Below are positions 37,671-45,596 of a stretch of DNA of 64,000 nucleotides, piece by piece (position 1 is the stretch's first letter; the number at the start of each line of letters is the position of its first letter). The translations under genes and the position numbers were made by a program. The stretch comes from Bacteroidota bacterium (GTDB taxonomy: Bacteria; Bacteroidota; Rhodothermia; JANXDC01). The DNA is taken from assembly GCA_025998875.1 (NCBI GenBank), contig AP024675.1, positions 434,001 through 498,000 of the forward strand, in the 5' to 3' direction. Under the pieces are notes generated by a model. The model saw only the letters and a list, made by a program, of their open reading frames with translations, made no database searches and was not told the DNA's origin.

Positions 37671-38351
37671 ATGCCAGCGGATCAGGCCCTGCAAGCGCTC
37701 TACGAAGCGCTCCTGGATTGCCGTCGGTGTCCGCGCCTGGTCGCCTGGCGAGAGGAAATCGGGCGTCGCAAGCGCGCCGCCTATCGGGATGAGCCCTACT
37801 GGGCCCGACCCGTTCCGGGCTTCGGAGATCCCCATGCCCGGCTCCTGCTTCTGGGGCTGGCTCCGGGGGCGCACGGGGCTAACCGTACAGGGCGCATGTT
37901 CACCGGCGATGCCTCGGGGGATTTTCTCTACCGCGCCCTCTATGAGATGGGCTGGGCCAACCAGCCCACCTCTCGCTCCCGAAACGACGGGCTCCAGCTG
38001 AGGGGCCTATACATCACAGCCGCTCTGCGCTGTGTTCCGCCCGGCAACAAACCGCTAGCCGAAGAGCTCCGCCATTGCGCCGTATGGACGGAGCGCGAAC
38101 TCGGTCTGCTTACAAACCTGCGCGTTTATCTGGCGCTGGGTCGTATTGCCCATGAGGCCCTGCTGCGCCACTACGGGCTTTCCCCGCGGGCCCATCCCTT
38201 CGCGCACGGGGCTGAATATGCGCTTCCGGACGGGCGCTGGCTTGTGGCCAGCTACCACGTCTCGCGGCAAAACACGCAGACCGGAAGGCTTACTGCCTCC
38301 ATGTTCCGCGCCGTGCTCGAGCGCGCCGGTCAAAGAGCCGGCCTGCTTTAA
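37671..38351 (+). CDS. Uracil-DNA glycosylase, family 5 (UDGb-like)
   Basis: 226 residues. Cysteines CRRCPRL at the N-terminus, RCVPPGNKP and HCAVW are spaced to bind a 4Fe-4S cluster. Motif A is GLAPGAHGANRTGRMFTGDASG, the family 5 form, and the C-terminal motif is SYHVSRQNTQTGRLT. It excises uracil and other deaminated bases. This family is frequent in thermophiles. GAGGAG directly precedes the ATG. Its stop overlaps the stop of the convergent aminotransferase gene (TTAA). Confidence 0.92.
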   Translation: MPADQALQALYEALLDCRRCPRLVAWREEIGRRKRAAYRDEPYWARPVPGFGDPHARLLLLGLAPGAHGANRTGRMFTGDASGDFLYRALYEMGWANQPTSRSRNDGLQLRGLYITAALRCVPPGNKPLAEELRHCAVWTERELGLLTNLRVYLALGRIAHEALLRHYGLSPRAHPFAHGAEYALPDGRWLVASYHVSRQNTQTGRLTASMFRAVLERAGQRAGLL

Positions 38352-39658
38352 CGAGCCGCCACCTCGGGCACCTGACCCCGGACGACGCGCTCGAGTATCT
38401 CGGCAAAATAGTCGATCTCCGAAATCCGGGTATAGACGTTCGGGGTAACCCGGATACCCCGGAACTCCGGATGCACGATGGGGGTGACGATGATGCGGTG
38501 CCGCTCCAGAAGCCAGTCCGTGAGCCGGACCGGATCCACCCCCTGGATATCGACTACCAGCAGTCCGCACCACTGAGTGGGATCATCCAGGTTGGTCAAA
38601 AAACGCACCCGCTCGTAGGTCCGGAGTCGCTCCGCCCAGCGAAGGTTGAGATAGCGCAACCGGGCCGCCTTGCGTTCCACCCCGAGCCCCTCATGAAAGG
38701 CGAGCGCTTCGGCGATCGCGTTGTGGTTGGCCGCCGGATGGGTGCCGATTTCCTCGAACTTGCGGATGTTGTCCTCCATGTCGGCCGGCGCCGCCATGAG
38801 CGGCCATACCCGGCGGATCCGATCTCGCCGCACGTACAGGAACCCTGTACCGATAGGGGCGTAGAGCCATTTGTGCAGGCTGGTGCCGTAGTAGTCGCAC
38901 TCCAGATCAGAGACGGAAAAGGGAAAATGGGCAAAGGCATGCGCCCCGTCGACGATCACCTCCAGGCCGCGCTCATGGGCCATCCGACAGACCTCACGCA
39001 CCGGCAGGATCTGGCCCGTAATGTTGATCACATGGCAGATATGCACCAGCCGGGTTCGGGGCGTGATGGCGGCCTCGAGGCGGCGCACAAACTCCCTCCC
39101 ATCCCGCAGGGGCACCGGAAAGGTGATCTTGCGCACCACGATGCGATCCCGGCGCACTCGCTGGTCCCAGGTCGTCAGCATCCGGGGGTAATCCTGTGTG
39201 GTCGTGACCACCTCATCACCCGGCTCCAGATCAATGCCCAGCTGCACGATCTCGAGCGCCTCGCTGGCGTTGCGCGTAATGGCGATCTCCTCCGGATCGG
39301 CACCAAAATGCCGGGCCAGCTGAGCGCGGACGGACTCGATGCGGGGTTCCAGATGACGCCACATGTGGTATACAGGGGCCTGGTTGGCATACTCCAGATA
39401 TTGCCTGAGCGCCTCCTGCACCACGCGCGGACTGGGGCATACCCCTCCGTTGTTCAGGTTGATGAGCGTGCGATCCACAGCAAAGGCACGCTGCACCTCG
39501 GCCCAGAACAGCTCATCGCGGGCCAGATCCTCCGGAGAACGGGCCGGATCGATCGAAGCGGAGGCATCGAGGAGGCGAGCCAGCCCATCCTCGCGCAATA
39601 CGGCCAGCGCGGCACCAGTCCAACCGGCCAGCCGACCCAGAAATCTTCTCCGGGACAT
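38348..39658 (-). CDS. Tat-exported class V aminotransferase-like PLP enzyme
   Basis: 436 residues. A twin-arginine signal (SRRRFLGRLAGWTGAALA) precedes a fold type I PLP enzyme of the class V/isopenicillin-N-epimerase type: NNGGVCPSPRVVQEAL, TRNASEALEIVQLG, IVDGAHAFAHFP and the Schiff-base Lys in GTSLHKWLYAPIGTGFLY. A cofactor-containing enzyme suits Tat export, since PLP is inserted in the cytoplasm. Activity could be desulfuration, epimerisation or transamination. Confidence 0.88.
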   Translation of the reverse strand: MSRRRFLGRLAGWTGAALAVLREDGLARLLDASASIDPARSPEDLARDELFWAEVQRAFAVDRTLINLNNGGVCPSPRVVQEALRQYLEYANQAPVYHMWRHLEPRIESVRAQLARHFGADPEEIAITRNASEALEIVQLGIDLEPGDEVVTTTQDYPRMLTTWDQRVRRDRIVVRKITFPVPLRDGREFVRRLEAAITPRTRLVHICHVINITGQILPVREVCRMAHERGLEVIVDGAHAFAHFPFSVSDLECDYYGTSLHKWLYAPIGTGFLYVRRDRIRRVWPLMAAPADMEDNIRKFEEIGTHPAANHNAIAEALAFHEGLGVERKAARLRYLNLRWAERLRTYERVRFLTNLDDPTQWCGLLVVDIQGVDPVRLTDWLLERHRIIVTPIVHPEFRGIRVTPNVYTRISEIDYFAEILERVVRGQVPEVAAR

Positions 39659-39811
39659 CATAAACGGCTCCTCCCCGCTCTCTTACGACAGACGCGAACA
39701 AAAAAACAGCGAGGCGATATGGGGCGCAAGCCGAAGGATCGAACACCACGAGGTGCGGGAAACCCGAAAAAGCGCCTTGCCTGGACGATAGAGCGCCGCT
39801 TTCTTTACAGC

Positions 39812-44050: not shown

Positions 44051-45178
44051 ATGGAAAGTCTTCTGGTCACATACCGGCTACAGAGCGCATCTGAGGAGGC
44101 GCAGGCCCGGGCAGAGGCGCTGGCGCTGGAACAGACGGTAGAACTACCACGGGAGCTGGTGCAAAACGCTTTTGTCAGAACACACATCATGGGCCGGGTG
44201 GAAGCCCTGGAGCCGGACCCAGCGGGGGGCATCCGGGCCCGGATCCGCTACCCCGCCCAGACGATCGCGGGCAATCCGGCCCAGCTGATGAACGTGCTCT
44301 TTGGCAACTGCTCTCTGCAACCGGATGTGGAGCTGGTGGACGTGGAGCTGCCGGAATCCGTGCGCTCCCTGTTTGCAGGCCCCCAACACGGCATTGCCGG
44401 GATCCGCGCGCGTCTGCAGGTAGAGAAGCGGCCGCTTACGTGCACCGCGCTCAAGCCCATGGGGCTGGGGCCCGAGGAGCTGGCCGGGCTCTGTGAGCTA
44501 TTTGCGGAAGCGGGCATCGATCTGATCAAAGACGACCACGGCCTGGCCGATCATCCGTTCTGTCCATTTGCGGAGCGGATCCACCGCTGCCAGGAAGCCG
44601 TAGAACGCGCGGCGGCCCGCACAGGCCGCCGCTCCTGGTATGTACCCAACCTTATCGGACGCCCCGAGGAGCTGGAGGGACAAATCGCCCGGGCTCGCGA
44701 GCTGGGTATAGAGGCCGTGTTGGTAGCCCCGATGCTGATCGGCCTACCGGTCTTCGAAAGTCTGGTCCGGCGTTTTCCAGAGCTCGTCTTCCTGGCCCAT
44801 CCCGCTATGGCGGGATCGGGACGCATGGCCCCGGAGGTGCTGCTGGGCCGCATCTTCCGCCTGATGGGAGCCGATGCGGTGATCTTTCCCCACGCCGGGG
44901 GACGGTTCGCCTACTCGGAAGCCACCTGCGCAGAGATCACCCAACGCCTGCGCAGCCCATGGCCTCCGGTGCGGTCTGCCTTTCCCGTACCCGCTGGAGG
45001 GCTTCGGTGGGAAAAGCTAGCCGATGCCCTGCAGTTCTACGGCCCGGATACGATTTTTCTGATGGGGGGAGCGCTCTATGAGGCCGGACCGCGGCTCAAA
45101 GAGCGCAGTAGGGCCTTCGTAGAGCAGATCCACAGGCTCGCCAAAGAGGGGGTCGGTGTCCATGCTGGTTCGCTTTGA
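44051..45178 (+). CDS. RuBisCO-like protein (form IV)
   Basis: 375 residues with the RuBisCO large-chain barrel: TALKPMGLGPEELAGL near residue 133, AGIDLIKDDHGLADHPFCPF near 156, LAHPAMAGSG, VPAGGLRWEKL and FLMGGALYEAG. The Lys equivalent to the carbamylated residue (Lys160) and following Asp-Asp are kept. The Glu of KDDE is His163 and the KPK signature is KPM, so it cannot be a carboxylase. The Gly pairs that hold substrate phosphate remain. Characterised form IV proteins act in methionine salvage or sulfur-sugar isomerisation. It overlaps a cupin gene by 17 nt, as discussed in the findings. Confidence 0.9.
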   Translation: MESLLVTYRLQSASEEAQARAEALALEQTVELPRELVQNAFVRTHIMGRVEALEPDPAGGIRARIRYPAQTIAGNPAQLMNVLFGNCSLQPDVELVDVELPESVRSLFAGPQHGIAGIRARLQVEKRPLTCTALKPMGLGPEELAGLCELFAEAGIDLIKDDHGLADHPFCPFAERIHRCQEAVERAAARTGRRSWYVPNLIGRPEELEGQIARARELGIEAVLVAPMLIGLPVFESLVRRFPELVFLAHPAMAGSGRMAPEVLLGRIFRLMGADAVIFPHAGGRFAYSEATCAEITQRLRSPWPPVRSAFPVPAGGLRWEKLADALQFYGPDTIFLMGGALYEAGPRLKERSRAFVEQIHRLAKEGVGVHAGSL

Positions 45179-45596
45179 AGAGCCGTTCTGCTGGCAGGGG
45201 ATCGCCGTTCAAGAGTACAAAACCGAAGGCACGCATTTTCGCGCCATTACTCGCCAGACCTTGCTACGGCATCGTGAGGGGCTCGCCTGCGAAGTGCGGT
45301 ACTTTGAGGTCCAGCCTGGCGGGTATTCGAGCCTGGAGCGACACCAACATGCCCATGCCGTCATCGTGCTGCGCGGAACGGGCCGGGCCCTTGTCGGAGA
45401 AAGCATATACTCCCTTCGCCCCTTCGATGTGCTCTACATCCCTCCCGGATGCTGGCATCAATTCCGCGCAGAAGAGGACGTACTGGGCTTCCTCTGTCTG
45501 GTAAACTGCCATCGGGATCGTCCCGAGCTGCCCACCGAAGCGGACCTGGAGCAGCTGCGCCGGCATCCGGAAATCGCCGCCTTCATACGGATATAG
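45162..45596 (+). CDS. Cupin protein coupled to the RuBisCO-like protein
   Basis: 144 residues of the single-domain cupin fold. The metal-site region is HQHAHAVIVLRGTGRALVG, followed by LRPFDVLYIPPGCWHQF. Three His in the first motif and one in the second are present, but the usual Glu after HxH is replaced by a hydrophobic residue. ATG 45162 lies inside the RuBisCO-like gene; a GTG two codons earlier is possible. In Rhodospirillum rubrum a cupin works with a RuBisCO-like protein on methylthio-sugar phosphates, which makes the same partnership plausible here. Confidence 0.8.
   Translation: MLVRFEEPFCWQGIAVQEYKTEGTHFRAITRQTLLRHREGLACEVRYFEVQPGGYSSLERHQHAHAVIVLRGTGRALVGESIYSLRPFDVLYIPPGCWHQFRAEEDVLGFLCLVNCHRDRPELPTEADLEQLRRHPEIAAFIRI

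Follow-up and report, generated by a model that had tools for sequence, protein, structure and literature searches.

A RuBisCO-like protein and an overlapping cupin as candidate enzymes of a methylthioadenosine-isoprenoid shunt in a Rhodothermia bacterium

The window, a 64,000-nucleotide stretch from the genome of a Bacteroidota bacterium of the class Rhodothermia, carries a gene for a RuBisCO-like protein (RLP) that overlaps a cupin gene (Table 1), and the two products very probably catalyse steps 3 and 4 of an oxygen-independent methylthioadenosine (MTA)-isoprenoid shunt. This route was originally elucidated in Rhodospirillum; it starts from a toxic by-product and yields methanethiol together with an isoprenoid precursor. 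MTA would be phosphorolysed to 5-methylthioribose-1-phosphate, probably by one of two purine nucleoside phosphorylases, and isomerised by MtnA to 5-methylthioribulose-1-phosphate, which the RLP would convert to 1-methylthioxylulose-5-phosphate. Together with a low-molecular-weight thiol, the cupin would then generate 1-deoxyxylulose-5-phosphate (DXP) and a methylthio-thiol adduct. DXP would enter the MEP pathway via Dxr, and the methanethiol could be reused for methionine. The chemistry is assigned by analogy with R. rubrum and R. palustris; the gene identities, clade membership, co-occurrence and the presence or absence of the other pathway genes come directly from this analysis. The pair would represent a complete-genome case of oxygen-independent sulfur salvage supplementing isoprenoid precursors, in a lineage apparently using bacillithiol.

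Table 1. Features of the RLP-cupin locus (positions within the window)
Feature	Position	Strand	Detail
DeepYkr-clade RLP, predicted 5-methylthioribulose-1-phosphate 1,3-isomerase	44051..45178	+	375 aa, ATG 44051 to TGA 45178
KPM, residues 135-137 of RLP (RuBisCO KPK motif, Met137 for second Lys)	44453..44461	+	alignment
KDDH, residues 160-163 of RLP (carbamylated-Lys/Asp/Asp metal-site motif, His for Glu)	44528..44539	+	alignment
Single-domain cupin, predicted 1-methylthioxylulose-5-phosphate methylsulfurylase	45162..45596	+	144 aa from ATG 45162; GTG 45156 possible
H61-x-H63-x-H65 metal motif of cupin, no motif-1 Glu	45342..45356	+	alignment
His99, fourth predicted metal ligand of cupin	45456..45458	+	invariant in alignment
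Overlap, RLP 3' end / cupin start	45156..45178	+	17-23 nt

The RLP is recognised by the Pfam RuBisCO_large profile (82.5 bits against a cut-off of 30.1), and in alignment its same-genus homologue begins at the same ATG. It is the sole RuBisCO-family gene in the complete genome (2.35 Mb, single contig) and has neither KPK nor KDDE, on which grounds a carboxylating RuBisCO was rejected. Translation and alignment confirm the residues picked out in the first-pass annotation, with Lys160, Asp161 and Asp162 kept, His163 in place of Glu, and KPM in place of KPK. KDDH is invariant in a 13-row RLP alignment that includes the solved structure 3qfw, Lys135 and His250 are likewise invariant columns, and the third position of the KPM motif varies within the clade between M, V, I and Q. 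As His163 occurs in every DeepYkr RLP examined, 3qfw included, and in all RLPs examined from the window's class, it is a mark of the clade.

Searched against all solved structures, the RLP has its nearest match in 3qfw (325.6 bits, E 4e-96), which we take to be R. palustris RLP1; the structures that follow, MtnW enolases among them, score 144 bits. In a tree of 62 RLPs, with 3qfw and the R. palustris sequences L055 and L092 as references and the R. rubrum RLP left out, the window RLP belongs with these references to a 24-row clade (support 100/100) whose members come from Rhodopseudomonas, Meiothermus, Verrucomicrobiota and several families of the window's own class. Within it 3qfw branches as sister of the R. 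palustris and R. pseudopalustris RLPs, at 68-70% identity. The DeepYkr set is supported at 97/99, apart from an MtnW clade of four structures (100/100), and forcing the window RLP into the MtnW clade is rejected by the AU test (p-AU 0.00011). The RLP of Fodinibius (Balneolaceae) falls among those of the window's class in the same tree. R. palustris RLP1 is a 5-methylthioribulose-1-phosphate 1,3-isomerase both in vivo and in vitro (PMC5893883). The window RLP is 49% identical to the Meiothermus RLP and only about 45% identical to this proven enzyme, so its specificity could have drifted.

The cupin, a Cupin_2 domain in Pfam (49.6 bits), has as its nearest solved relative 3jzv, deposited as Rru_A2000, which it matches over residues 5-142 of 144 (156.9 bits, E 3e-45); 3kgz and 3ibm come next, and no other cupin scores better than E 2e-5. 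The protein Rru_A2000 serves R. rubrum as methylsulfurylase (PMC4958253, PMC4334135). Sequence identity of the window cupin is 53% with Rru_A2000 and 56% with 3kgz, comparable to the 56% between the R. rubrum and R. palustris cupins (PMC5893883). Neither this match nor that of the RLP to 3qfw is a chance similarity. The lack of the usual metal-site Glu was correctly read from the outset and is a family-wide trait. HxHxH and His99 are invariant in an 11-row cupin alignment that includes 3jzv, 3kgz and 3ibm, and HxHxH is present in each full-length RLP-adjacent cupin compared; the "missing" Glu is therefore no defect. Degeneration as an account of the His-for-Glu exchange in the RLP and the absent Glu of the cupin was rejected, both being family invariants.

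The RLP stop codon (45176-45178) lies 17 nt into the cupin frame when counted from ATG 45162 and 23 nt when counted from GTG 45156, in agreement with the overlap originally proposed, and the overlap implies co-translation. The same-genus genome shows this arrangement too, with both genes side by side on one strand and in overlapping frames. Since dapD starts 12 nt past the cupin stop codon and upstream of the RLP, on the opposite strand, is a WbqC-like gene, the neighbourhood itself names no pathway. Elsewhere in the window, 38348-39661 on the minus strand encodes a PLP enzyme with a twin-arginine-like N terminus (MMSRRRFLGRLAG). Its nearest model is the periplasmic PvdN family (156 bits against a cut-off of 650), and the product is a predicted exported aminotransferase-V-like protein.

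RLP and cupin occur together across genomes. Among 80 genomes around that of the window, 24 have both and 56 have neither, with no exceptions (Fisher p 6e-21, a value that ignores shared ancestry); the count omits a 25th RLP match, in genome G044, which is another type of RLP. In eight genomes (G003, G005, G013, G015, G014, G024, G026 and G057) the two genes share a contig at a distance of some 6-13 kb, and here adjacency has been lost and co-occurrence kept. Further afield, a cupin adjoins the RLP at 43 of 80 named DeepYkr loci from many phyla, on the same strand every time (the script total of 44 includes a match at L110 that is no cupin by sequence). Such adjacent pairs are found in Meiothermus, Verrucomicrobiota, Chloroflexota, Actinomycetota, Planctomycetota, Gemmatimonadota and Pseudomonadota. 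Co-occurrence over the 80 related genomes provides strong genomic support that the two enzymes work as a unit in lineages far removed from the purple bacteria. Two large ORF clusters at the compared loci were discarded, as they consisted of the cupin and, apparently, of frames antisense to it. An O-acetylhomoserine sulfhydrylase gene (metY, TIGR01326) adjoins the RLP-cupin pair at L037, L057 and L076, matching the model above its cut-off in L037 and L076 and assigned by similarity in L057, an arrangement that fits the reuse of methanethiol to make methionine. The G044 protein (L030:1420-2718, a 433 aa frame, same class) is related to the Photo-type RLPs 1ykw and 2qyg and sits on a very long branch; this genome lacks a cupin of the Rru_A2000 family.

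The rest of the genome is compatible with a shunt and incompatible with conventional salvage. MtnA is present (450 bits against a cut-off of 279), as are Dxs (820 bits) and Dxr (489 bits). No match to the acireductone dioxygenase MtnD (PF03079) was found in the complete genome, and for MtnB the genome offers a single below-cut-off match of the aldolase family, its highest-scoring models being those of decarboxylases, epimerases and FucA-like aldolases. With MtnD absent and no MtnB over cut-off, the conventional oxygen-dependent pathway cannot be completed, as the first-pass annotation had anticipated. That annotation had proposed the RLP-cupin pair as a candidate MTA-isoprenoid shunt, a reading now supported by the clade of the RLP, the similarity of the cupin to Rru_A2000, co-occurrence and the pathway genes. 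Given the presence of Dxs, the shunt would add to the DXP supply without taking the place of Dxs, and isoprenoid synthesis without Dxs, with the shunt essential, was rejected. The MtnB match, the class II aldolase-family product of L005:1471-2109 (213 aa), scores below every family cut-off. It is a possible methylthioribulose-1-phosphate or deoxyribulose-1-phosphate aldolase; as MtnB it was rejected for its below-cut-off score.

For the entry of MTA, a nucleosidase was rejected, as no mtnN was found in the genome. Of the two genes expected at the head of the pathway, mtnA was recovered and mtnP as such was not. The MTAP model gives 84.4 and 78.3 bits in the genome against a cut-off of 274.85, and both matches are class I purine nucleoside phosphorylases (L003:1486-2325 and L002:1471-2298). 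In the base-recognition segment the L003 enzyme has Asp (VITDECF) and the L002 enzyme Asn. Inosine/guanosine phosphorylases have Asn at this position, and Asp there favours 6-aminopurines. Both proteins, however, keep the HEEV segment, which contacts the 5'-hydroxyl; either may be the MTA-cleaving enzyme.

The thiol used by the cupin may set this organism apart. When R. rubrum is fed MTA it accumulates a glutathione-methylthiol adduct, which a methylsulfurylase mutant lacks, and glutathione is the in vivo co-thiol (PMC4334135). The use of glutathione is a trait of that organism and does not define the cupin by sequence. The window's genome has no match to the glutathione synthetase family PF02955 (gshB-type), so that glutathione, as judged by this type of synthetase alone, is likely absent; BshC, which completes bacillithiol synthesis, scores over cut-off at 266.9 bits. 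Taken together, these two results suggest that, if the pathway works, its cupin probably relies on bacillithiol or a different thiol. A shunt without glutathione, in which the methylthio group passes to bacillithiol or another non-glutathione thiol and methanethiol release needs bacillithiol recycling, is a tentative proposal to which we give slightly less than an even chance. If true, the organism would run, with the thiol exchanged, a variant of a pathway that has been demonstrated with glutathione only. A general expectation that organisms should differ in this thiol has been put forward (PMC6302742), and if the thiol does differ, methylsulfurylase specificity becomes directly testable. Against the shunt reading as a whole stand the lack of an MtnP over cut-off, the lack of a glutathione synthetase, and the position of dapD directly downstream with no sulfur-salvage gene alongside.

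Three other accounts of the locus were weighed. The RLP could be the 2,3-diketo-5-methylthiopentyl-1-phosphate enolase (MtnW) of conventional oxygen-dependent salvage, with the cupin either unrelated or acireductone dioxygenase-like. The NCBIfam MtnW models are indeed the best named matches of the RLP, but at 190.8 and 135.8 bits these fall far under the cut-offs of 409 and 513.6. The protein has KDDH rather than KDDE, the genome is without acireductone dioxygenase, and the RLP groups outside the MtnW (YkrW) clade, which was the placement that could have spoken for the enolase. Tree, AU test, model scores and the absence of MtnD led us to reject this reading, which retains hardly any probability. 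An account closer to the shunt takes the main substrate to be 5-deoxyribulose-1-phosphate, derived from the radical-SAM by-product 5'-deoxyadenosine, which the RLP would convert directly to DXP, leaving the cupin for the methylthio substrate only. In its favour, North et al. in 2020 (cited in PMC10418091) reportedly found that MtnA-type steps serve the salvage of both MTA and 5'-deoxyadenosine in other bacteria, and on chemical grounds the equivalent isomerisation of a C5-deoxy analogue would yield DXP itself. The obligate co-occurrence with the cupin, however, says that the methylthio substrate matters, and no such RLP activity was found in the literature searched; we regard this account as improbable.

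The third account divides the labour differently, with most MTA passing through a DHAP shunt by way of MtnA and a class II (Ald2-like) aldolase, the L005 protein, and the RLP-cupin pair serving a minor branch. A class II aldolase of this size does exist in the genome, its best models being aldolases and decarboxylases of the same fold at 111-134 bits, and R. palustris operates both routes (PMC5893883). However, every one of its family scores is under cut-off and its gene is linked neither to mtnA nor to the RLP, which leaves a mainly aldolase-based route unlikely in our judgement. The MTA-isoprenoid shunt through RLP and cupin is the reading that we retain.

The comparison of DeepYkr loci also uncovered a distinct arrangement. 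At 36 of the 80 named loci there is no cupin match, and in 17 of these the RLP is directly preceded, in the same orientation, by a transketolase-like gene that in most cases is divided into an N half and a C half (L078, L105, L062, L068, L071, L074, L085, L087, L090, L091, L093, L098, L101, L102, L103, L108 and L111). No cupin-bearing locus among the 80 has a transketolase directly upstream; two have a distant opposite-strand match. In Anaerosolibacter (L078:614-6119) and Alicyclobacillus sp. ALC3 (L105:680-6098) an mtnK gene (464 and 512 bits, respectively) comes first, followed by mtnA, the N and C halves of the transketolase and the RLP. In Anaerolineales L068 an MTAP-like gene is next (240.5 bits against the cut-off of 274.85). 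The transketolase C half scores 219.6 bits to transketolase and 199.7 to Dxs, both under cut-off. The change of partner between cupin and transketolase occurs once on the RLP tree, and this single switch suggests an alternative, apparently undescribed route of MTA salvage; no description of the transketolase-RLP arrangement was found in the literature searched, of which coverage is partial. We speculate that a thiamine-diphosphate enzyme might cleave 1-methylthioxylulose-5-phosphate at C2-C3 to glyceraldehyde-3-phosphate and a methylthio two-carbon unit. In the window's own genome, mtnA (C1:1904919-1905896) lies about 2 kb from a transketolase-like gene on the same strand (C1:1907529-1909085), with two small ORFs for probable membrane proteins between them. 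The proximity is possibly due to chance, and is of note given the transketolase-RLP operons elsewhere.

The window pair is a good new example of a known shunt and not a new system. It does lie outside the lineage in which the shunt was described, as initially suggested, but this is not in itself new. The spread beyond Rhodospirillum has been published, with Meiothermus, Nitrococcus and Halorhodospira already listed with an RLP-cupin pair in similar organisation (PMC4958253), the shunt demonstrated in R. palustris (PMC5893883), and thousands of genomes screened for the RLP and cupin enzymes (PMC10663253). Bacillus MtnW (YkrW) has a RuBisCO-like fold, as the window RLP does, and acts on a neighbouring substrate of MTA salvage, but belongs to a separate clade, carries KDDE and works with MtnB, MtnX and MtnD. 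The Meiothermus pair (L034, L035) resembles that of the window as an adjacent pair in a non-proteobacterial phylum; it has been named as a likely anaerobic salvage pathway (PMC4958253), and its function is likewise only predicted. The RLP1 and cupin genes of R. palustris (RPA2169-RPA2170) are adjacent, as in the window, and the RLPs belong to one strongly supported clade; unlike the window's genome, that of R. palustris encodes MtnP and a second RLP as well. Compared with the R. rubrum shunt (Rru_A1998 RLP, Rru_A2000 cupin), in which the RLP and cupin locus tags are two apart, the window genes overlap, no dedicated MtnP was found in the genome, and with BshC but no glutathione synthetase the co-thiol probably differs. 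In common with R. rubrum, the window combines a DeepYkr RLP with an Rru_A2000-type cupin bearing HxHxH..H, in a genome that has mtnA, dxs and dxr and is without mtnD.
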